DNA from: a bacterium
GTDB lineage: Bacteria; Cyanobacteriota; Vampirovibrionia; Gastranaerophilales; Gastranaerophilaceae
Assembly (NCBI GenBank): GCA_017467605.1
Contig: JAFUSQ010000024.1
Span: forward strand, 1 to 45,067
Direction: 5' to 3'
Length of the DNA stretch: 45,067 bases
Positions within the stretch are counted from its first letter, which is position 1. Each line of letters opens with the position of its first letter. The notes beneath the pieces were generated by a model. That model was not told where the DNA came from, searched no databases, and was given only the letters and a program-made list of their open reading frames with translations. The position numbers and the translations under genes were made by a program. This document shows, in pieces, positions 2,949 through 16,324 of this stretch.

Positions 2949-2998
2949 AAAAAATATGCCGCAACTCGGAATTGAACCAAGGACACAGGGATTTTCAG
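2949..2998. repeat. Left attachment site (tRNA-Phe 3' fragment)
   Basis: These 50 bases are identical to 9570-9619. They contain the T arm, acceptor end and anticodon arm up to the anticodon of tRNA-Phe (minus strand), after which similarity stops abruptly. This is the duplicated target produced when the element integrated. Confidence 0.92.
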
Positions 2999-3116
2999 AC
3001 CGTGTTTTATTAAAACTATCAAAAAACATCAAAAACTAAACAATAGATATAACTTGCATTTTGACGATTTTTATTTTATAATTTTTTTGAAAGTTTTTGA
3101 TTTTTTTTCAAAAAGT

Positions 3117-3135
3117 AACAAGAAAATAACAAGAA
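3117..3135. repeat. Paired AACAAGAA repeats, candidate integrase arm site (left)
   Basis: AACAAGAA occurs at 3117-3124 and 3128-3135, 11 bases apart, between the left attachment site and the integrase start. The same paired arrangement, embedded in the same 23-base block, recurs at 9487-9505 near the right end, and a 10-base-spaced pair lies at 9380-9397. The placement is typical of integrase arm-binding sites. Confidence 0.6.
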
Positions 3136-3159
3136 TTTTTAAAAAGGAATCTGTTTAAT

Positions 3160-4269
3160 ATGCACCAAATCCAAAAATACGAAAAGAAAGACGGCACGGT
3201 GTCCTATACCGCTTGTATTCGCGTCAAAGGTTATAAGACAATGACTGCAACATTCAAGAAAAAACAACAAGCGCAATTATGGATACAAGAAAATGAAAGC
3301 AAAATGAAATTAGGACGGCATATACAAACGTCCGAAGCTAAAAAACACACTTTAGCGGAACTCATAGACCGATATATTACAAATGAATTGCCGAAGCGTA
3401 AATCAGATATAAACAAATTTAAAATGCAACTGGCATGGTGGAAAGATAAAATCGGTTGTTATTACTTGTCGGCTATTACCCCCGCAATATTAACAGAAGC
3501 TAAAGAACTACTGGAAAAAGAAAAGAGTTTAAAACCGCAACAAGGGCGCACAACAAGAACACCCGCAACGGTTAATCGGTATTTGGCGACGCTTTCAATA
3601 GTTTTCAGTTATGCTTGTAATGAATACGGGTGGTTGGACGAAAATCCAATGCGTAGAGTTAGAAAAAATAAAGAAAGAGCAAACAAAGACAGATATTTAA
3701 CCCCCGACGAAATAGAACAGTTATTACTGGCATGTAAAAATTATGAATTAAAAACAGAAAACTATAACAATGAAACATATTTATTTGTTTTAATTGCGCT
3801 TACTACTGGCGCGCGCTATTCAGAAATACATAATCTAAAATGGAAAGACATTGATTTTCAGCATAGACAATTTTATTTTTTAAATACAAAAAACAAAGAA
3901 AATCGCGGTGTGCCAATGTCTGAAGCTATTTATCAAGAATTAAGGCAATTCCAGAAAGTCCGAAACATTAAAAGTGATTATTTGTGGACGACAAAAGACG
4001 GCAAAAAATTAATTGATATGCGGGTCCGATTCTATAAAGTGTTAGAACTTGCAAAAATTAAAAATTGCCGTTTCCATGATTTGCGCCATACAGTAGCAAG
4101 CCATATTGCTATGAATGGCGGAAGTTTACTTGATATTGCACAAATAACAGGACATAAAACAATGCAAATGGTTAAAAGATATTCACACCTTACGCAGAAA
4201 CACACGGCAAAATTATTACAAGATACAACAGACATTATGCTAAAGCGTACAAGCCAAAATAACGGGTAA
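3160..4269 (+). CDS. int: Tyrosine recombinase / phage-type integrase
   Basis: The 369-residue integrase catalyses site-specific recombination between the tRNA-Phe site and the element. It has an N-terminal arm-binding-like segment (residues 1-50), a SAM-like core-binding domain (about 65-165) and a catalytic domain (175-350). The catalytic set is complete: Arg219 in TGARYSE, Lys244, His306 and Arg309 in HDLRH, His332 in ITGHK and nucleophile Tyr341 in RYSHL. The gene starts 162 bases inside the left attachment repeat and reads inward. A GGAA-rich stretch precedes the ATG. The intact catalytic residues suggest the element is still mobile. Confidence 0.95.
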   Translation: MHQIQKYEKKDGTVSYTACIRVKGYKTMTATFKKKQQAQLWIQENESKMKLGRHIQTSEAKKHTLAELIDRYITNELPKRKSDINKFKMQLAWWKDKIGCYYLSAITPAILTEAKELLEKEKSLKPQQGRTTRTPATVNRYLATLSIVFSYACNEYGWLDENPMRRVRKNKERANKDRYLTPDEIEQLLLACKNYELKTENYNNETYLFVLIALTTGARYSEIHNLKWKDIDFQHRQFYFLNTKNKENRGVPMSEAIYQELRQFQKVRNIKSDYLWTTKDGKKLIDMRVRFYKVLELAKIKNCRFHDLRHTVASHIAMNGGSLLDIAQITGHKTMQMVKRYSHLTQKHTAKLLQDTTDIMLKRTSQNNG

Positions 4270-4276
4270 TACTGGC

Positions 4277-4978
4277 ATGGAATCAGAAAACTTAAAGGAT
4301 AAAATACAACAACAAACAGTCGAAACAGATACATTAATACAATTAATGCAACTTTTTAAAAAGCAAGATGATTTTGTAAAGCAAGCATTAAAGTTTCTTG
4401 ATGATTTGCGCCAAACTGCCGACGTCTTGAACTTTTCGGAAGAATACAACAAACAAGCGCAAAAACAATTTATAAGCGAAATAAGACGCATAAAAGGCGC
4501 ACTTGAATATAATCGTTATATTGATATTGATTTTAAATTAAAAATGGCTATATTGCTTGTAGAATTGCCAGAAGCACAACGCGAAATATTCTTTTTGATT
4601 GGAATCAAAAAATATTCTTCACTTGCTGAAATCGGACGCGCACGCACCAAAGGACGCACAAGGCAAGCCGTTGACGGTATTTTAAAACAAATGTTTCAAT
4701 ATTTTTTGTATGGTAATACTGGAAAATTTAATATTGCGCAAAAAACAATTTTCGCAAATGCAGACACGCAACACAGGCATGATGAAATTTCAGAAATACA
4801 AGCCTTGTGTGCAAATATGCCCCAAAATGCCGAAATTATAATCAATAGTTTATTTGATGAATTTTTATTACTGGATAAGGACAAACAAGCAAAAGAAAGT
4901 TATATAAACAAATTGCTTGAAATGTACCGCAAAAAAGAAAATAACGACATTCAACCCGACGACTTTTATATTTTATAG
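4277..4978 (+). CDS. Element-encoded helical protein, possible HTH (unrecognised)
   Basis: The 233-residue protein is almost entirely helical and charged. Residues 98-140 (from LPEAQREIFFLIG to RQAVDGILKQMF) resemble the spacing of a sigma-70 region 4 or other helix-turn-helix, so DNA binding is possible but not shown. No family was recognised. It starts seven bases after the integrase stop, inside a copy of the ACTGGCATG motif, with only a CGGG stretch upstream as a ribosome site, so it is probably translationally coupled to int. It could regulate excision or act as a small-terminase-like protein; neither is supported beyond context. Confidence 0.72.
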   Translation: MESENLKDKIQQQTVETDTLIQLMQLFKKQDDFVKQALKFLDDLRQTADVLNFSEEYNKQAQKQFISEIRRIKGALEYNRYIDIDFKLKMAILLVELPEAQREIFFLIGIKKYSSLAEIGRARTKGRTRQAVDGILKQMFQYFLYGNTGKFNIAQKTIFANADTQHRHDEISEIQALCANMPQNAEIIINSLFDEFLLLDKDKQAKESYINKLLEMYRKKENNDIQPDDFYIL

Positions 4979-4986
4979 TTTATTGT

Positions 4987-5001
4987 TTGACATTTTGTCA
5001 A
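4987..5001. promoter_or_regulatory. Candidate operator overlapping the -35 of the alpA/rep promoter
   Basis: The inverted repeat TTGACA (4987-4992) / TGTCAA (4996-5001) overlaps the -35 box of the promoter at 4995-5024. A repressor bound here would block transcription of the excision/replication genes. Confidence 0.4.
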
Positions 5002-5024
5002 TCTTACATACTGGCAAATATAAT
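4995..5024 (+). promoter_or_regulatory. Promoter for the AlpA-like and replication genes
   Basis: A -35 box TTGTCA (4995-5000) and -10 box TATAAT (5019-5024) are spaced by 18 bases, upstream of the gene at 5102. A 17-base stretch that includes the -10 box (5015-5031) recurs at 7700-7716 just after the helicase and 55-residue genes. Confidence 0.6.
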
Positions 5025-5101
5025 TTTAAAATAAAATATGCTAAAACCTTACTATATTAAGAAAACTCAAAAGGCATTAAAAAAGAAAGTGAGGTTTTAT
5101 C

Positions 5102-5347
5102 ATGCCAGAAAAAACACAAAATATTGAAAGCAAACAACAAAACAAAGAGATTCAAGAACTAATCCCATTGAGTAAATGGAATGATTATTACGATTATCCG
5201 ACAGTAGGAACGCTAAGACAATTAGTATTTTATGAACATTCAAACGGATTCAGTAAAGTAATTCGTCGTATCGGTTGCAGAATTTACATTAAAACATCTG
5301 CATTTTTTGAATGGGTAGAAGAAACAAACAAAGCGAGGGCAATATAA
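5102..5347 (+). CDS. AlpA/excisionase-like small DNA-binding protein
   Basis: The 81-residue protein has a basic winged-helix-like core at residues 30-75 (TVGTLRQLVFY, then FSKVIRRIGCRIYIKTSAFFEWV). This pattern of a recognition helix followed by a two-strand wing and a final 'AFFEWV' helix is typical of small phage and island proteins of the MerR/AlpA excisionase type. Such proteins direct excision or activate the integrase. The ATG at 5102 has a purine-rich ribosome site (GTGAGG) and its own promoter with a palindrome over the -35 box. It sits between integrase and replication genes, as AlpA does in several phage satellites. Confidence 0.75.
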   Translation: MPEKTQNIESKQQNKEIQELIPLSKWNDYYDYPTVGTLRQLVFYEHSNGFSKVIRRIGCRIYIKTSAFFEWVEETNKARAI

Positions 5348-5460
5348 AAGCCTAATACAATACTTTTTGATTGATATTAGGCTAAAAGAAATCTGTTTAA
5401 CCTATATATACATTAAAAAGATAGTTATTGCAAGGTTTTTATATTCCAAGAGGGGATATA

Positions 5461-6252
5461 ATGACACAAAAAGATAAACTGGGCGGATATATGCTTATAT
5501 ATCGTAAAATGTTAAATGACCCGTTGTGGCTTTCCGAACGTTTTACAAAAGCACAGGCATGGATAGATTTATTATTTCTTGCCAATTATGAAGACGGTTA
5601 TATTGTCGTAGGTAACGGCGAAACAATACCCGTAAAGCGTGGACAATGCGCGTGGAGCCAATCGCGACTTGCGAAACGTTGGAAATGGACACGGGGCAAG
5701 GTTGAGCAATACTTCAAGCATTTAATCGAGCAAGGAACTATACAACGAATTGAGCAAGGAAAAATCGGGCGCAAGACTACTATTATCAATATTCTTAATT
5801 ATGAAAAATACCAAGACCGAGCAACGAAACAAGCAACAAGTCAAGCGCAAGACCAAGCAACGAACCGAGCACTATATAAAGAAATAAAGAAAGAAAATAA
5901 AGAATCTTCTATAAGCGAATTTTCAAAAAAAGTTTTAGACCCAAATTATTCCCCTGAAGTTCGATATTTTTTAGATACGTTCAAAGAGATTTGCAAAAAA
6001 CATACGTCAATAGGGCAAGGGGAAAGGATAACGCTATCAAAGTATATAAGCGATTTAATGGCGCAAGAATACGATTATAAAACAATAGCGAATACAATAT
6101 GTCAAAATTTCAATAAAACGAGCTTCACCGTCAATTTAGGGCTTAACTGGTTATTGAAATCTGAATCTAATTTTTACGGAATATTTAACGGCGAATTTAG
6201 CAACAAAAAACAAAACATTGAGGGGGTAATAGAAAATGAATACGTCAATTAG
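5461..6252 (+). CDS. Replication initiation / replisome organiser protein
   Basis: The 263-residue protein has an N-terminal winged helix (about residues 45-110, with WSQSRLAKRWKWTRGKVEQY and FKHLIEQG) like the RepO/DnaD-type proteins of Gram-positive phages. Next is a low-complexity linker rich in Ala, Thr and Gln (about 115-140) and a C-terminal helical domain. Such proteins bind the origin and load the helicase. The ATG at 5461 is chosen because it follows AGAGGGG at about eight bases; an upstream in-frame TTG at 5428 has no such site. Its last 17 bases overlap the DnaB-like helicase start, the usual initiator-helicase pairing. Confidence 0.78.
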   Translation: MTQKDKLGGYMLIYRKMLNDPLWLSERFTKAQAWIDLLFLANYEDGYIVVGNGETIPVKRGQCAWSQSRLAKRWKWTRGKVEQYFKHLIEQGTIQRIEQGKIGRKTTIINILNYEKYQDRATKQATSQAQDQATNRALYKEIKKENKESSISEFSKKVLDPNYSPEVRYFLDTFKEICKKHTSIGQGERITLSKYISDLMAQEYDYKTIANTICQNFNKTSFTVNLGLNWLLKSESNFYGIFNGEFSNKKQNIEGVIENEYVN

Positions 6253-7528
6253 AGATAAGTATACTCATACAGATATGGAAATACAACATGATAATGAAAA
6301 ACAAATCATACTTGCACTTGTAGGCGAATCGGATTTTAATATAAAACAACAAATAATTGAACACTCATGCCCGCAAATGTTTACAAATAGCATATATCGG
6401 AAAGTTTATAATATTGTCATTGATTTATACAAAAACAATATTGAAATATACGACCAAAATATTATTGCAAGATTAGACAAAGAAGAACAAAAACGTTTCT
6501 TGATTGAATTGATGAATGAATATATTACCGCAAGAACATATAAATTTCATCTTGAAAAACTTATAAATGCTTATATTCAACGTTTGTTAAATGAATGCGA
6601 TACAATAGAGGGCTACGAAGAAATAAAGAAGCTAAAAGAAAAATATTCATTAAAAGCGCAGACGCGCCCAATTTGGGAAGATACAGACAATTTGATATGT
6701 GATTACTGCAATAGGTGGGAAAATCCCATACAAACGTATTACAAATCCGTAGATAACATTATAGGGAGTTTACAAGGCGGGGATATACTTATTTTAGCGG
6801 GTGCAACTGGCATGGGAAAATCTTGTATGATGTTAAATTTACTTGTTAAAATGGCAAAACACGGCAAAAAGATTTTATTATTCTCTCTTGAAATGTCAGC
6901 CGAACAATTACAGAATCGTATTATTTCAGCAGAAACGGGCATACATGCCAGTAAATATCGTAATTATGAAATGACAGACGACGAATTTAAACAATATTGC
7001 GATTTTGCACAATCTGATAAGTTTAAATCATTACCTATTGATGTATGTACGGAATACCATATCACAATAGACCGCTTAACCGCTATTGTAAACGAAAGCG
7101 ACGCAGATATTGTATTTATAGATTATTTAGGACTTATAAGCGGTAACAAGGGCGCAAACACTTATGAAAGAGTGTCGGAAATATCGCGCGAATTAAAACT
7201 ACTTGCCATGTCGTCCAAAAAGCCTTTTGTTGTATTACATCAACTTAATAGAACAATGACAGACAGAGCAGACAAAAGACCGCAATTATCAGATTTAAGA
7301 GATAGCGGAAAGATAGAGCAAGACGCAGATTTTATCTGTTTTGTATATAGACCCGCATATTATGATAAATCAATGGATAAAAACGCATTAGAATTTATTG
7401 TCAAAAAGAACAGGCATGGGGAAGCCAATTTGACGGCGCGTTTAATATTCGACGGCGCGACACAAAGAATAACAGACGTTCAAGGGGAAACACCGCAAGC
7501 ATTCAGACAATGCGGGATAGGATATTAA
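6236..7528 (+). CDS. DnaB-type replicative helicase
   Basis: The 430-residue hexameric helicase would unwind element DNA. The N-terminal domain (about 15-115) matches the DnaB N-domain that binds primase. The RecA-like domain has Walker A GATGMGKS (189-196), Walker B VFIDYLG (293-299, Asp296), the HQLNR sensor (335-339) and the arginine-finger segment KKNRHGE (390-396). It starts within the initiator gene, after GAGGGGG. The host should carry its own chromosomal dnaB, so this copy implies autonomous replication of the excised element. Walker A is partly encoded by a copy of the ACTGGCATG motif. Confidence 0.93.
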   Translation: MNTSIRDKYTHTDMEIQHDNEKQIILALVGESDFNIKQQIIEHSCPQMFTNSIYRKVYNIVIDLYKNNIEIYDQNIIARLDKEEQKRFLIELMNEYITARTYKFHLEKLINAYIQRLLNECDTIEGYEEIKKLKEKYSLKAQTRPIWEDTDNLICDYCNRWENPIQTYYKSVDNIIGSLQGGDILILAGATGMGKSCMMLNLLVKMAKHGKKILLFSLEMSAEQLQNRIISAETGIHASKYRNYEMTDDEFKQYCDFAQSDKFKSLPIDVCTEYHITIDRLTAIVNESDADIVFIDYLGLISGNKGANTYERVSEISRELKLLAMSSKKPFVVLHQLNRTMTDRADKRPQLSDLRDSGKIEQDADFICFVYRPAYYDKSMDKNALEFIVKKNRHGEANLTARLIFDGATQRITDVQGETPQAFRQCGIGY

Positions 7529-7540
7529 GGCGGTCAATGT

Positions 7541-7708
7541 ATGCAATATACGGAAGCAAAAGAACAATATAAAACCAAACCTAAACAGACTGCGGATAAC
7601 CGATATATACTGTACGAACAAGAAAAAAGGAAATTACGTGCTTTAAATTTAAGTCCTGAAGAATGGGAAATCAGAATCAATCAATTACTTGATGAATTAC
7701 AAATATAA
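7541..7708 (+). CDS. Small 55-residue element protein
   Basis: An open frame starts at ATG 7541, 12 bases after the helicase stop and preceded by AAGGCGG. The product is charged and helical (MQYTEAKEQYKTKPKQ at the start, LSPEEWEIRINQLLDELQI at the end). No family was recognised. Codon use, ribosome site and position at the end of the replication operon support it as real. It may be a helicase-loader accessory or regulator, but nothing in the sequence says which. Confidence 0.6.
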   Translation: MQYTEAKEQYKTKPKQTADNRYILYEQEKRKLRALNLSPEEWEIRINQLLDELQI

Positions 7709-7729
7709 TTTTAAAAATATTTTCCTATC

Positions 7730-7811
7730 CCCCCCATGTATCAAATAGTAGTATGAATCGAAAAGACCGCACCCTTACAGACAAAGAATAAATCTGAAAA
7801 TACATGGGGGG
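7730..7811. repeat. 12-bp perfect inverted repeat around 58 bases
   Basis: CCCCCCATGTAT (7730-7741) pairs exactly with ATACATGGGGGG (7800-7811). It lies in the 279-base gap between the replication operon and the convergent leftward genes. The C6/G6 arms stand out in AT-rich DNA. It could form a structured RNA, a two-way terminator or an origin feature; no T-run follows either arm. Nothing else gene-like is visible in 7709-7987. Confidence 0.7.
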
Positions 7812-7987
7812 TGTGGTATCATATCAATTAGTCCTAATTCCCTTATTTTGCACGTATTTAAAGAATTTTGATAAAATATTTTAAAATAATTCTTTTTTTA
7901 GTTTATTTTGCGCCAAAATACTTGATTTTATAAGGTTATTTGATTATTTTTCAAGCAAAGAATTTTAAATCAAAATCAATCAGTTTT

Positions 7988-8182
7988 TTATGCTTTTTGA
8001 CTGTTTTTTGCGGTGTTTTCGTCCAATTCCGCGCGCTTCCATTCAATCAATTTTGCAATATAGCGGGCGCGCATATAGTCGCGCTCAGCGTCCGAACATT
8101 GTTCGTCTGGTATTCGTATTATTACACCGAACTCTTTAACCCTCTTACCTTTATATACGGGCTTTTTTACGCAATAATCCAT
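7988..8182 (-). CDS. Small 64-residue element protein
   Basis: This leftward gene is the second cistron after the repressor at 8411, 22 bases downstream of its stop. The product is basic/acidic mixed and probably helical in its second half (SDAERDYMRARYIAKLIEWKR); no family recognised. Its start region (CGGGAATACTGGC then ATGGA) is nearly the same as that of the gene at 4277, including the ACTGGCATG motif over the start codon, which supports this frame over the longer opposite-strand frame covering 7940-8344. Confidence 0.62.
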   Translation of the reverse strand: MDYCVKKPVYKGKRVKEFGVIIRIPDEQCSDAERDYMRARYIAKLIEWKRAELDENTAKNSQKA

Positions 8183-8204
8183 GCCAGTATTCCCGCGTTT
8201 ATAT

Positions 8205-8411
8205 TTATTTGCGTTTTACCCATTCTATGTCATAGCCTAATAAATCGGCAATCTTTGAAAGTTCTATATAGTCAAACGTTGCTTTTTTTATACGTTGCGA
8301 AATGTTTTGTTGAGAAGTTCCCAACACTTCCGACAATTTGCTAATATTAAAGCCGTTTTCAGCCAATTTTCCTTTTAAGAAATATTCAAATTCAACTTTA
8401 TTTGAAATCAT
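8205..8411 (-). CDS. Cro/cI-type repressor of the element
   Basis: The 68-residue protein is little more than a helix-turn-helix domain: ISKLSEVLGTSQQNISQRIKK (residues 23-43) with a C-terminal helical end (IADLLGYDIEWVKRK). It is transcribed left from a near-consensus promoter (TTGATA, 17 bases, TATAAT) and has a strong AAAGGGG ribosome site. It faces the rightward gene at 8568 across a region with TACTTG/CAAGTA palindromes, the arrangement of a phage lysogeny switch. It has no peptidase domain, so induction would not be by LexA-like self-cleavage. Confidence 0.83.
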   Translation of the reverse strand: MISNKVEFEYFLKGKLAENGFNISKLSEVLGTSQQNISQRIKKATFDYIELSKIADLLGYDIEWVKRK

Positions 8412-8432
8412 AACAGACCCCTTTCTATTTGT

Positions 8433-8461
8433 ATTATAAACTAATTACTTGTATTTATCAA
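8433..8461 (-). promoter_or_regulatory. Leftward promoter of the repressor gene
   Basis: On the minus strand, TTGATA (8461-8456) and TATAAT (8438-8433) are spaced by 17 bases. The -35 box is overlapped by the TACTTG-N7-CAAGTA palindrome, suggesting autorepression. Confidence 0.7.
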
Positions 8462-8464
8462 GTA
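8446..8464. promoter_or_regulatory. Operator palindrome of the element switch
   Basis: TACTTG (8446-8451) and CAAGTA (8459-8464) form an inverted repeat with a 7-base spacer. The same half-sites recur at 8500-8505 (TACTTG, over the rightward -35) and 8533-8538 (CAAGTA, just after the rightward -10). The likely binder is the repressor at 8205-8411. Confidence 0.6.
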
Positions 8465-8502
8465 TTAAATTGTAAAGTAATGTAAATAATTTAATAAAAT
8501 AC

Positions 8503-8531
8503 TTGAATTATACAATCAAATGATTTATAAT
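8503..8531 (+). promoter_or_regulatory. Rightward early promoter of the element
   Basis: TTGAAT (8503-8508) and TATAAT (8526-8531) are spaced by 17 bases, upstream of the gene at 8568. Operator half-sites flank both boxes, so the repressor should close this promoter. Confidence 0.65.
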
Positions 8532-8567
8532 ACAAGTATAAGGTTGAATAAAAAGAGGTAACAAAAA

Positions 8568-8843
8568 ATGAACAAAGAAGAATTAACAAAACAAGTCAGA
8601 GAATTAAAAGAACTTAAAACAATGCTTGAAGAATTGCAAGGCGAAATCACCGCAATCGAAGACAATATCAAAGCAGAAATGAGCGCACAAAACGTCAATG
8701 AGTTGGTTGTAGATGTATTTAAAATTCGTTGGACACCAGTTTCAAGTAATAGATTTGATACAAAGACATTCAAAGAAAAATATTCAGACTTATACAATCA
8801 ATTTACAAAGGTTATAGAAACAAAAAGATTCAGCATAGCATAA
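8568..8843 (+). CDS. Small phage-type protein of unknown function (91 residues)
   Basis: The first half is a coiled coil (residues 2-45, KELKTMLEELQGEITAIED) and the second half a compact beta segment (VVDVFKIRWTPVSSNRFDT) ending in helices. Similar short 'coiled coil plus K/R-x-W-x-P-V' proteins are common in early regions of Gram-positive phages and plasmids, with no firm function. The ATG follows AAAAGAGGT. It is the first gene under the regulated rightward promoter, so its expression should mark induction of the element. Confidence 0.78.
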   Translation: MNKEELTKQVRELKELKTMLEELQGEITAIEDNIKAEMSAQNVNELVVDVFKIRWTPVSSNRFDTKTFKEKYSDLYNQFTKVIETKRFSIA

Positions 8844-8844
8844 A

Positions 8845-8910
8845 CGGGGGATAATTCCCCCGCAAGGGGAAAGCAAAGCCACAGTCCAAAAAGGGGGCGG
8901 GGGCGGGGCG
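8845..8910. other. GC-rich structured stretch: hairpin and G-run tract
   Basis: CGGGGG/CCCCCG (8845-8862) forms a hairpin two bases after the stop of the 91-residue gene, with no T-run. A tract of G5-C-G5-C-G4 follows at 8893-8908, preceded by GGGG at 8866-8869, giving the four G-runs needed for a quadruplex. The rest of the gap up to 9106 holds only an 11-codon frame at 8941-8976 and a 19-codon frame at 9000-9059, which I do not call as genes. Confidence 0.5.
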
Positions 8911-9106
8911 ACTATGCGCAAAATTTGAAAGGACAAAAAAATGAACATTGATTTTTGCATATTCAAGACGGGATAAAAATTAATTTTACCCGCGCACAAA
9001 TGCCCGATTTTAAAAATTTAATAGCAAGGTGGTATAAAATATCGTCTGAAAATTTTTAAAGGGCTTAAAAACGATTTTGAGAATAGAAAATATAGGAGTA
9101 AAAAAA

Positions 9107-9364
9107 ATGAGTATTGAAAACAAAGTATTTGATGAAAACGAAAAACAAAACGACGAACTAATCGACGAAATCGCGGGTGAAATCGACAATATAGACACTT
9201 TAACAAGTTATATTTGCGCCGATTTTGAACGATTTATCGAAAATAACGGAATTATACGCGCCGACAGTTTACAAGGAACTCAACAACTTGTTTTTATTAT
9301 TGAAAATCAACTTATTTCAATAGCGCGCAAGTTAGCAATCATTGAAAGACGAAAACTGGCATGA
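9107..9364 (+). CDS. Small acidic element protein (85 residues)
   Basis: The ATG at 9107 follows TAGGAG at a good distance; an in-frame TTG 30 bases upstream has no ribosome site. The product is acidic and helical (ELIDEIAGEIDNIDTLTSY at residues 17-35, IARKLAIIERRKLA at the end) with no recognised family. It is the last gene before the right attachment site. Its stop codon lies in a copy of the ACTGGCATG motif, which forms an inverted pair with the next copy. Confidence 0.65.
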   Translation: MSIENKVFDENEKQNDELIDEIAGEIDNIDTLTSYICADFERFIENNGIIRADSLQGTQQLVFIIENQLISIARKLAIIERRKLA

Positions 9365-9379
9365 TAATCTCATGCCAGT

Positions 9380-9397
9380 AACAAGAACTAACAAGAA
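9380..9397. repeat. Paired AACAAGAA repeats, candidate integrase arm site (right, inner)
   Basis: AACAAGAA at 9380-9387 and 9390-9397, 10 bases apart, lie directly after the inverted ACTGGCATG pair and about 170 bases inside the right attachment site. Confidence 0.5.
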
Positions 9398-9486
9398 TTT
9401 AATTATTTAATAATTGAATAATTATAAAATGTTCAAAAATAACTTTTTAAAATTTGCTTATAATTTTTTGTATTTTTCAGATTTTT

Positions 9487-9505
9487 AACAAGAAAATAAC
9501 AAGAA
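9487..9505. repeat. Paired AACAAGAA repeats, candidate integrase arm site (right, outer)
   Basis: AACAAGAA at 9487-9494 and 9498-9505 repeats exactly the 11-base-spaced pair found next to the left attachment site (3117-3135). It lies 65 bases inside the right attachment repeat. Confidence 0.6.
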
Positions 9506-9569
9506 TTTTATAACAAATAAGATTTTTTGATTTTGATGAAATTGTCAAAACCCTTGCTATTACTGAAAT

Positions 9570-9619
9570 AAAAAATATGCCGCAACTCGGAATTGAACCA
9601 AGGACACAGGGATTTTCAG
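9570..9619. repeat. Right attachment site within tRNA-Phe
   Basis: A 50-base perfect repeat of 2949-2998. It covers the tRNA 3' half from the anticodon loop through the acceptor end and continues about nine bases past it. The crossover must lie in this block; the tRNA stays complete after integration. Confidence 0.92.
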
Positions 9620-9650
9620 TCCCTTGCTCTACCAACTGAGCTATTGCGGC
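9578..9650 (-). tRNA. tRNA-Phe (GAA)
   Basis: The minus strand folds as a full cloverleaf of 73 bases: acceptor GCCGCAA/TTGCGGC, D arm GCTC/GAGC, anticodon arm AGGGA/TCCCT with loop CTGAAAA (anticodon GAA), and T arm with GGTTCAATTCC. The discriminator base is A and CCA is not encoded. The gene is the integration target of the element at 2949-9619; its 3' half is supplied by the element's attachment site. Confidence 0.96.
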
Positions 9651-9692
9651 ATATTATTTACTTCAGCGTAACCCATGCAGGTCACAATATCT

Positions 9693-10757: not shown

Positions 10758-12533
10758 TTACCAGGAGCCTCCGCCCCCGCCGCCACCGCCTCCGCCGGAA
10801 TGTCCACCCCCGCCGGAAGATGATGAACTTACTGTAACACCGCCATTTGCGACTGACGGAACGGAGACTGAATTCATTCTATTTGAAAAATAGTTAAAGT
10901 TGTTTGTATTGAAGCGATCTCCCGAATACCAATCCGGATTAAATGTAATAATATTTTCGAATTTAGAAATCCATTTATCAGAAACTTCTAAGATATAAGC
11001 ACTTGGCAAAACATTATAAAAATATTCCGGCTCCTCGTTCACCAATTGTTCCAACCTATGTTTTTCCGCAACTTCAATAAAGTGCTTTAATCCTAACAAG
11101 TTATTGAGTAATCTTTGTCCAAACTTGTTTCGTTTTGGCAATTGATAAGTACAAATTGCAGATATAATAAGCCCGGCAATTCCAAACAACACAACAGGTA
11201 AATTTTCAATTGACATGAATCTAAGAAGATATATCATTGGCATTCCACCAAATAATAAAGCCCAAACTAATATAAAACACCCCGAAAAAAGGTCTTCGAT
11301 TTTTTGCATAAAACCTAAAACAAGAACCAATATCGCAATAAGCGGGAATAACAAAAAAGGAAAGTTTATCATTATAGAACTCATTTGAAAACTAAAAAGA
11401 GTATATACAGTTAAAAATAACAACCCTGCCAAACACAAAAACATTAAAGCCTGAAGCGGGAAGCCAATTGAAGATGGAACAAAAATTTTATCTCTTTTTT
11501 TGTTTAATTTTTCTACTATTTTATTACAATCCAAATAAAAAGTTTTTGAAACAGCCAATTCTGTATCGCGAACCTTATTTGCAGATTTTTTGAACAAAGC
11601 GGTTATATAATCTGATTCTATATCAATATTCCCGTCATAATCCTTAATTTTTTCAATACTAAAACTGTTATTTCCTTCATCAATTATTTTTATATAACCC
11701 TTTTGAGCCAATTCAATCAATAAAGCAACAAGACCTTTTATAGAAGCCTTACCTTTATATAACAATTCCACTTCGGCGGCATTCAAACCTTTTGGAGGAT
11801 AAAAATTTACAACAGGAATAACCGGTTCATCTTTGCCGTATACAAACCAGGTTAAAACAGAAATTGCAACAAGCAAAAGTATTCCAAAAACGACATAATT
11901 TTTCGTATGGTTAACATATTTGGTAAAATAACCATCCGGCACTTCAACTCTGATAGTTACACCTTCGTAAGGCAGGAGAATGCGTTCAACTTTACCTAAT
12001 ATTTTTCTGTCATCACGAACAAAAAATTTAGCCCCGCCATTAAAACCCTTAACTCCCTCTTTTCCGATAGAAAGCCCTACCTTAGAAGGATTAATATCTT
12101 CCGGCATTGAGATATAAAAATAAACTTTTTTAATCTCAACAGGCCACTTTGTACCTATTATGTTATGATAAAATTCATTTTTATTATCATGATAAGCGTA
12201 TTTATAAGAAATCCTATAATGGTGTTTTCCCGTAATATATCTGTCAGGATTACCAATTTTTATATTTACATTATTACCGCTATAAGTAGTTTCAAATCTT
12301 TCAGAGACATTTATATCGGATATTGAAGCATTAGGAAACGGAATATCCCTAAATATTCCATGTGAAGAATTAGTAAAATAAGCATCAATATCTTCTACTA
12401 CATTTACAGTCTTATCCTTATTTACGCGTATTTGAACATCATAACTGTTTATAAAAAAATTTTCAGCGAATACAGACGGCGAAAATAAAGTAAATATAAA
12501 AAATCCAAATATAAATAAAAATATTCTTTTCAT
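10758..12533 (-). CDS. DUF2207-domain membrane protein
   Basis: The 591-residue protein has a signal peptide (residues 1-23), an extracytoplasmic DUF2207 domain (about 24-205; NFFINSYDVQIRVNKDKTVNV, GIFRDIPF), a transmembrane helix near 213-230, a cytoplasmic part with a winged-helix-like region (LNAAEVELLYKGKASIKGL), three or four central helices (about 360-460) and a Ser/Gly-only tail ending in SW. Such tails are typical of this family, whose function is unknown. The start codon directly follows the stop of lemA, a partnership seen in many bacteria, so the two probably form one envelope complex. Confidence 0.88.
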   Translation of the reverse strand: MKRIFLFIFGFFIFTLFSPSVFAENFFINSYDVQIRVNKDKTVNVVEDIDAYFTNSSHGIFRDIPFPNASISDINVSERFETTYSGNNVNIKIGNPDRYITGKHHYRISYKYAYHDNKNEFYHNIIGTKWPVEIKKVYFYISMPEDINPSKVGLSIGKEGVKGFNGGAKFFVRDDRKILGKVERILLPYEGVTIRVEVPDGYFTKYVNHTKNYVVFGILLLVAISVLTWFVYGKDEPVIPVVNFYPPKGLNAAEVELLYKGKASIKGLVALLIELAQKGYIKIIDEGNNSFSIEKIKDYDGNIDIESDYITALFKKSANKVRDTELAVSKTFYLDCNKIVEKLNKKRDKIFVPSSIGFPLQALMFLCLAGLLFLTVYTLFSFQMSSIMINFPFLLFPLIAILVLVLGFMQKIEDLFSGCFILVWALLFGGMPMIYLLRFMSIENLPVVLFGIAGLIISAICTYQLPKRNKFGQRLLNNLLGLKHFIEVAEKHRLEQLVNEEPEYFYNVLPSAYILEVSDKWISKFENIITFNPDWYSGDRFNTNNFNYFSNRMNSVSVPSVANGGVTVSSSSSGGGGHSGGGGGGGGGGSW

Positions 12534-15360: not shown

Positions 15361-16324
15361 TGTGAAAAATTTAATCAAAAGTAAAGTTTCACTTGCCCCA
15401 ATGGCAGGAATAACTGATTACGTACTTCGCTCACTTGTTAGAGAATACTCCCCAAATACACTTCTAACAACAGAGATGATAAGTTCGGAATTTTTAGCAC
15501 AAAATGTACAAACAGAAATAACAAAACTTGATAATACACATCACCCCATTTCTTACCAAATTTGCGGGCACAAACCGCATCTTATGAAATATTCATCAGA
15601 ATATCTGACACAATTTGCCGATATGATAGATATTAATATGGGTTGTCCAGTTAATAAAGTTGTAAAAGGTCAAGACGGCTCAGCTCTGATGAGAAATCCA
15701 AGACTTGCACAAGATTTGGTAAAAGCAGTAAAAGAAGGTACAAATAAACCTGTAAGCGTGAAATTTCGATTGGGATACACGCAAGATGAGATGAATTTTG
15801 TGGAATTTGGACAGCAAATGCAAGAAGCCGGTGCAGAATTTATAACGCTTCATCCCAGAACCCGTTCTCAATTTTATTCAGGACAGGCTGATTGGTTAAA
15901 AATAAAAGAACTTAAACATAATGTAGATATTCCGGTTTTTGCCAATGGGGACATAATTTCAATTGAAAGTGCCGAAAAATGTCTTGAACAAAGTGATGCT
16001 GACGGGGTAGCAATAGGCCGGGGAATATTAGGAGACCCGACTCTTATCGGAAGAATTGCCCATTACTTGAATACAGGAGAAAAATTACCCGCACCATCAT
16101 TAGAAGATAAACTTAGAATGATGAAAAAACATCTCGACGGAGAAATAGAACTTCGTGGAGAAAAAGTTGCAATAAAATTTTTTAGAAAATTCTACCCATA
16201 CTACATTGCAGGTATAAGAAACGCATCAAAAATACGTTCTGTTATGGTACTTGAAGAAAATTATTCTAAAATTTTAGAATACATAGAATACATAAGAAAA
16301 GAAAACGATTTGGTAAAATTATAA
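15350..16324 (+). CDS. dusB: tRNA-dihydrouridine synthase
   Basis: This 324-residue FMN-dependent TIM-barrel enzyme reduces uridine to dihydrouridine in tRNA D loops using NADPH. The signature is complete: LAPMAGITDY (residues 15-24) for FMN, INMGCPVNKV with catalytic Cys99, KFRLGY (about 138), HPRTRSQFYSG (about 164), and the phosphate-binding FANGDI and GVAIGRGILGDP. A small helical C-terminal RNA-recognition domain follows. It fits the DusB subgroup best. Its ATG lies within the last codons of the TPR gene. Confidence 0.95.
   Translation: MQNSVKNLIKSKVSLAPMAGITDYVLRSLVREYSPNTLLTTEMISSEFLAQNVQTEITKLDNTHHPISYQICGHKPHLMKYSSEYLTQFADMIDINMGCPVNKVVKGQDGSALMRNPRLAQDLVKAVKEGTNKPVSVKFRLGYTQDEMNFVEFGQQMQEAGAEFITLHPRTRSQFYSGQADWLKIKELKHNVDIPVFANGDIISIESAEKCLEQSDADGVAIGRGILGDPTLIGRIAHYLNTGEKLPAPSLEDKLRMMKKHLDGEIELRGEKVAIKFFRKFYPYYIAGIRNASKIRSVMVLEENYSKILEYIEYIRKENDLVKL

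Follow-up and report, generated by a model that had tools for sequence, protein, structure and literature searches.

The window analysed here is a contig of 45,067 nucleotides (JAFUSQ010000024.1, assembly GCA_017467605.1) from a bacterium of the order Gastranaerophilales, in which positions 2949-9619 form a 6.6-kb element integrated at tRNA-Phe. The element is probably a minimal member of a PICI/PICMI-like family of phage satellites of this order. Two bodies of evidence lead to this reading. One concerns the elements themselves: perfect attachment (att) repeats, empty sites for sibling elements, 15 att-bounded elements, a conserved gene order and phage-type DnaD and DnaB proteins. The other concerns their relations with phages: siblings encoding a small terminase subunit (TerS) without the large one, lone tape-measure proteins (TMPs) related to those of myophages, and three myophage contigs with a repressor of the satellite type. 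A first-pass annotation of the window had proposed a phage-satellite pattern, to which these relatives lend independent support. Other loci and genomes are designated below by L and G numbers.

Boundaries, genes and relatives of the element

The host genome (2.19 Mb in 79 contigs, 96.5% completeness) carries a direct repeat at the two ends of the element, identical at 50 of 50 bases and mismatched directly beyond (as a repeat family, 53 nt at 98%). The right copy corresponds to the 3' half of tRNA-Phe(GAA) plus 7 bp. Ten open reading frames (ORFs) lie between the two copies, as reported in Table 1. The first-pass annotation had claimed perfect attachment repeats at tRNA-Phe, intact integrase catalytic residues, a DnaB helicase and a repressor switch, and all four were borne out: the tRNA is found intact by both ARAGORN and Rfam, integrase positions R219, K244, H306, R309, H332 and Y341, which we take to be the catalytic ones, are invariant among the 6 family members compared, and both the helicase and the XRE-type helix-turn-helix (HTH) protein, the latter with a divergent regulatory region, match the expected Pfam families.

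Two further labels had to be adjusted. The "initiator" is indeed a replication gene, more exactly one for a DnaD-like helicase loader. The 81-aa "AlpA-like" protein matches no Pfam or NCBIfam family, AlpA included, and its label rests on gene position and on a predicted fold: it is modelled, at pLDDT 81, as a small winged HTH, for which the top TM-score among the PDB entries listed is that of Tn916 Xis (0.64 by target, but with E 0.7). For p233, only one weak match besides itself was obtained from 241 genomes of the order, and its AlphaFold model (pLDDT 41) was unusable. GenBank virome records weakly matching p91 have no satellite backbone in common with the element.

Profile searches, including Pfam and PHROGs, assigned none of the ten ORFs to a structural, packaging, relaxase or type IV secretion system (T4SS) family at a meaningful score, and the capsid, portal, large terminase and tail genes of a complete prophage were not found among them. 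The terminase-like PHROG matches of the small repressor (best E 2e-4) span its HTH alone. The earlier statement that no virion or conjugation parts are encoded therefore stands for the window member; it does not stand for the family, in which siblings encode TerS or a TMP.

Table 1. Features of the element, in window coordinates.
Feature	Position	Strand	Basis or remark
attL, 50-bp copy of tRNA-Phe 3' part	2949..2998		direct-repeat detection
Tyrosine integrase, 369 aa	3160..4269	+	PF00589 E 4e-32, phrog_1 2e-70
CATGCCNG sites, 13	3429..9379		starts 3430, 3727, 4272, 4774, 5101, 5554, 6366, 6807, 6944, 7411, 8180, 9356, 9371
p233, orphan protein in variable int-alpA slot	4277..4978	+	weak sigma-70 region 4 match, E 0.15
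AlpA/Xis-like small winged HTH, 81 aa	5102..5347	+	position and fold
DnaD-like helicase loader / initiator	5461..6252	+	phrog_2514 1e-22
Phage-type DnaB helicase	6236..7528	+	PF03796 2e-67
p55, 55-aa protein	7541..7708	+	weak phrog_2465
p64, 64-aa protein	7988..8182	-	ORF list
XRE-type repressor, 68 aa	8205..8411	-	PF01381 1e-5; homologs in other satellites and myophage contigs
Divergent promoter/operator region	8412..8567		homologous to counterpart in phage contigs L341, L342
p91, 91-aa early protein	8568..8843	+	phrog_6244; 64% and 79% in two siblings
p95, 95 aa (or 85 aa from 9107)	9077..9364	+	positional match of siblings' ~92-aa last gene
attR	9570..9619		direct-repeat detection
tRNA-Phe(GAA), intact	9577..9651	-	ARAGORN + Rfam

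A second, partial tRNA-Phe copy of at least 43 bp is present in 6 of 46 genomes of the genus, that of the window included. Each of the other five harbours an element with an integrase of the same family (51-70% identity), the same small HTH protein (40-51%) and differing cargo. Genome G027 was kept apart from this count; it has two tandem tRNA-Phe copies 16 bp apart, the second one partial (G027:C25:35665-35822, locus L230), perhaps an integration scar. From the genus genomes and family searches together, 15 tRNA-Phe elements of 4.7 to 18.8 kb could be delimited by both att copies: the window element, L071, L073, L074, L075, L076, L077, L079, L080, L083, L087, L089/L317, L090, L091 and L325. 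L079 and L080 are apparently one element found in two genomes. L084 is located at tRNA-Met, and the boundaries of L327, L328, L333, L334, L335, L336 and L337 are not set by att sites. Integrase relatives at the same tRNA-Phe site show 51-87% identity, and the closest ones of named lineage come from Candidatus Gastranaerophilales, Gastranaerophilus and Melainabacteria records, with the exception of L090, whose Acinetobacter title is taken as a binning error.

The annotation had also proposed looking for an empty tRNA-Phe site, and such sites were recovered for four siblings, not for the window's own species. The left flank of L071 is joined to the tRNA in two element-free genomes (73 bp of flank, 98%); the corresponding figures are 46-58 bp at 94-97% for L087, 104 bp at 89% for L073 and 151 bp at 80% for L075. 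For the window, the joined flank and tRNA align just 14 bp into the left side, and the left-flank synteny route failed, the symporter gene not being adjacent to tRNA-Phe in other genomes. No integrase and no 3' duplicate were seen in the stretch read at 20 further tRNA-Phe loci, of which 12 are informative (the other 8 end at a contig edge within 7.3 kb). In L077 the contig breaks within attR/tRNA-Phe (11585-11656), as is expected where integrated and empty or excised states coexist.

Elements of the window subtype share the order integrase, slot gene, alpA, DnaD-like or O-like initiator, DnaB or DnaC-like loader and variable genes, followed by a repressor end made of the minus-strand HTH gene, early genes including p91, a ~92-aa gene and attR; single members have lost parts of it. 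In some siblings the int-alpA slot encodes a LuxR-type HTH protein (L334: GerE 2e-5), and these genes overlap or closely trail int. As for cargo, genes for a DNA methylase, an AAA_13 protein and a type III restriction endonuclease lie at L317:2321-9520, in a tRNA-Phe element of 18.8 kb whose integrase belongs to the same family, and a ~1660-aa protein with polymorphic-membrane-protein repeats is encoded at L087:12188-17167.

Phage genes in siblings and a repressor in common with myophages

TerS is encoded in L191/L076 (phrog_51 5e-41) and in L337 (phrog_51 3e-35; PF03592 2e-28), L191 and L337 also encode phrog_2412 and RusA, and neither they nor L076 showed a large terminase. L191 is the complete 13.9-kb IMG/VR contig of the L076 element, whose host contig has an att copy at 2433 and the tRNA-Phe end at 16293. 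As a probe for the large subunit phrog_2 was dropped, since it matched 45 of 46 genus genomes and 11 of 14 controls.

TMPs of 531-640 aa are found in L079/L080, L084, L090 and L328. They stand alone, with no other tail genes and in some cases with a partner gene, at L067:3863-6402, L084:11671-13923, L090:12988-14670 and L328:6427-8022. A search with the L067 TMP gave matches in 28 of 241 genomes of the order. Around such matches, sixteen loci were analyzed. A myophage head-tail cluster is conserved in 11 of them (L275, L277, L278, L280-L287); L276 corresponds to the L084 satellite, and the remaining four are phage-like loci of another kind. In L284, PHROGs recognise portal, protease, decoration, major head, sheath and baseplate proteins, and the small gene adjoining TMP in the 11 myophage loci is the same as in L079 and L084. 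Phage TMPs measure 575-645 aa, a similarity in length to those of the satellites by which tail shortening is not implied.

The repressor provides a second connection. In the 383 genomes of the family, profile A4 of the HTH protein has 21 matches scoring more than 100 bits, followed by one of 56 bits; in IMG/VR it finds nine loci, including contigs L340/L341 (apparently a single phage), L342 and L344. In the 12-20 kb read of each, these proved to be related myophages, recognised by genes for sheath, major head, TMP or baseplate proteins, to which L342 adds a large terminase; the L328 TMP and its next gene match the L341 pair in the same order (38-39%). The HTH of L341 and L342 is 72-79% identical to the window/L328/L334 type, that of L344 71% identical to the L332/L191 type. 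The phage-borne genes lie on the opposite strand within late gene clusters (L341:9980-10207, L342:10001-10204, L344:7637-7834), and in all three a conserved ~337-aa protein with a weak polynucleotide-kinase/ATPase match adjoins them.

The similarity extends to the regulatory region. The L341 region aligns with that of the window at a score of 79 (z 14), where the best of 300 dinucleotide shuffles reached 37; for L342 the score is 71 and the shuffle maximum 39. The L341 region also beats every shuffle when compared with L335, L334, L337, L328, L336, L076 and L333; no such match was obtained with L325, L077 or L327. Since both repressor and operator region are homologous, they have been exchanged between satellites and phages as a unit, in a direction that the data do not fix; judging from the sequences, the phages may have captured the satellite repressor for control or immunity.

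In the proposed mechanism, the repressor would hold the element silent until phage infection lifts repression. The AlpA-like protein, perhaps with p233, would steer the integrase to excision, the DnaD-like protein would load DnaB so that the circle replicates, and the element would be packaged by the machinery of a myophage. Phages bearing the satellite repressor and operator might keep the satellite repressed or share its control.

Replication and repressor genes of phage type, and single tail or terminase genes that look left over in siblings, could also be expected of the remnant of a formerly complete prophage. This explanation is improbable: the ORFs are intact and the att copies perfect, the compact gene order recurs intact across several genera with TerS or TMP among its variable genes, and no homolog of the integrase (INT) or of the AlpA-like protein (ALPA) was found in 15 phage loci, in the 12-19 kb read of each.

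Several points weigh against a phage satellite. The window member has no terminase, tail or capsid-remodelling gene; its integrase is unlike those of phages (at most 29.4% identity among the 20 best-covered phage records listed); no helper with an L284-type sheath was found in 46 genomes of the genus, in a search run without a positive control; and the Gastranaerophilales hosts of L341, L342 and L344 are ones that we infer. Moreover, the chassis is not confined to satellites, since the cargo of some siblings is non-phage: type III restriction, a giant beta-helix protein or a protease. A non-phage element that moves by conjugation or transformation and has borrowed its phage-like replication genes, be it similar to an integrative mobilizable element (IME) or an integrated replicon kept by vertical descent, would account for this integrase, whose relatives occur in chromosomal contigs of many phyla and in some plasmids, and for the restriction or surface-protein cargo. 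We consider it unlikely, given the lack of any relaxase or T4SS family in the element's ORFs, the siblings with TerS, TMP and phrog_2412, and the repressor region common to phages. A phage satellite is thus the preferred reading.

A dispersed octamer

The word CATGCCNG is present in 13 copies in the element and 174 in the whole genome, a density ~24-fold above the genome average; of the 13 copies of ACTGGCATG in the genome, 8 fall within the element and 5 outside it. In 3000 shuffles of the element (synonymous-codon and dinucleotide), CATGCCNG had a mean of 2.2 and a maximum of 5. When all 8-mers, with or without one gap, were scanned, it took one of the top two ranks in 12 of the 21 loci that bear the repressor. 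In order to compare classes of loci, observed and expected counts were ranked among 420 words of the same composition. Twelve repressor-bearing elements gave 95 observed against 4.0 expected (rank 1); in nine elements lacking the repressor the count was 18, with 2.5 expected (rank 1). The set of twelve leaves out L325 and L329 as near-copies, and L326, L330, L331, L332, L336, L338 and L339 as partial or not element-like, most of them not enriched; in L331, L332, L338 and L339, which bear the repressor and are not clearly elements, no enrichment was seen.

Ten myophage loci gave 1 observed against 14.3 expected (rank 396); the ten are related, and the depletion is suggestive. From this set L282, a near-copy of L281, was left out; the four remaining phage loci, treated separately, gave 8 where 5.0 were expected. 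The chromosome gave 11 against 8.2, and 58 loci with same-integrase relatives in other phyla gave 150 against 123, which is no clear enrichment. The variant of the word differs among elements (CATGCCAGTA in the window, CATGCCTGCA in L324, CATGCCGGCATG in L090), which suggests that its reader is encoded by the element. Other words, TAACCACAA and CACGTGCA, are enriched in L074/L075 and L328/L329.

The HTH repressor is an unlikely binder, to judge from the regulatory sequences: the core is absent from 14 of 14 divergent HTH regulatory regions, and phage loci L340-L342, with a 72-74% identical HTH, have no copy against 0.9-1.4 expected in each. The AlpA-like protein or the integrase could be the binder. 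The stoperators of Cluster A mycobacteriophages, as described in PMC9283540, are likewise numerous short asymmetric sites scattered over an element; here, in contrast to them, orientation does not track transcription (30 sites same, 23 opposite, in 12 elements), on which ground a stoperator model was rejected, and binding by the repressor is unlikely. Among protein clusters tested against the word in 28 loci, the int-alpA slot protein came first (9 of 15 motif-rich loci, 0 of 13 others; p 8e-4, uncorrected for the clusters tested), although L191, which lacks it, is motif-rich too. No association was seen for the HTH cluster (12 of 15 against 7 of 13, p 0.23), which as built lumps unrelated small HTH proteins.

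These data can be combined into a model that we hold tentatively, as possible though doubtful. The 8-bp word, at ~1 per kb, would mark satellite DNA for an element- or lineage-specific factor with a part in silencing, replication or packaging; myophages sharing these hosts would avoid the word and would have captured repressor and operator as an anti-satellite immunity cassette, each with the allele of a different satellite subtype.

Known systems and significance

Phage satellites are known chiefly from Firmicutes, Proteobacteria and marine bacteria. Like PICIs and SaPIs, the element has an integrase, a divergent repressor switch and a replication module, with TerS in siblings; it differs from them in the absence of Pri/Rep, in that no cpm/ppi-like genes were recognised, and in host lineage. 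In PICIs a primase-type replication gene stands beside the repressor switch, where the element has DnaD/DnaB.

PICMI satellites of Vibrionaceae, as described in PMC10803314, are arranged as int, variable gene, alpA and replication; the variable gene, overlapping or contiguous with int, is required for excision in the prototype, and AlpA triggers excision. The window element is similarly small, with int at one end, a contiguous variable gene, alpA, replication genes and no virion genes. Unlike the PICMIs described there, it lacks a DUF3987/DUF5906 primase and a PF05930/PF12728 AlpA match, is inserted at tRNA-Phe instead of fis, has a separate HTH switch and DnaD/DnaB replication, and has siblings with TerS or TMP. 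It may work like a PICMI, yet, the genes asked of PICMIs being absent, it is not classed as one. The same paper names tycheposons and VEIMEs. In general, these have in common with the element tRNA integration, a tyrosine recombinase and supposed virion carriage; their hosts are marine.

According to PMC13376191, a satellite is bounded by att repeats, combines an integrase gene with genes for regulation and replication, has no virion structural genes and measures 7-20 kb. All these genes are found in the element, whose 6.6 kb fall below that range, and no virion structural gene is. A hijack or packaging gene such as TerS, common and not universal in satellites, is absent from it and present in siblings L191 and L337. 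The relaxase of IMEs, and the T4SS also required of integrative conjugative elements, were not found in it.

The first-pass annotation knew of no described satellite in this lineage, which so far holds: in the openly licensed literature, none of the papers listed deals with satellites or integrative elements from this lineage, an absence that is no proof. A review (PMC11389934) names satellites in Cyanobacteria and Actinobacteria. The family is large and apparently undescribed. Present in several genera of gut-dwelling, non-photosynthetic relatives of cyanobacteria, it would widen the known range of satellites and show a convergent architecture (int, variable gene, alpA, replication). Through the common repressor cassette, a link between satellites and phages can be tested directly in an uncultured lineage, lone TMP genes suggest tails, besides capsids, as a target, and CATGCCNG is an unexplained sequence signal with sharp controls.

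Some minor features complete the description. A second integrase adjoins tRNA-Arg in L072:1-3600 (G005), with a DnaB 44% identical to that of the window; it is a related replication module at another tRNA. A GGGGGCGGGGGCGGGG run lies at window 8893-8908, between p91 and p95, in an element of 33% GC. The intergenic gap at window 7717-7824 contains an inverted repeat with C7/G6 runs (CCCCCCCATGTAT ... ATACATGGGGGG), and L074, L075 and L079 have G9-G10 runs within hairpins; possibly, these hairpins are terminators or cos-like sites.

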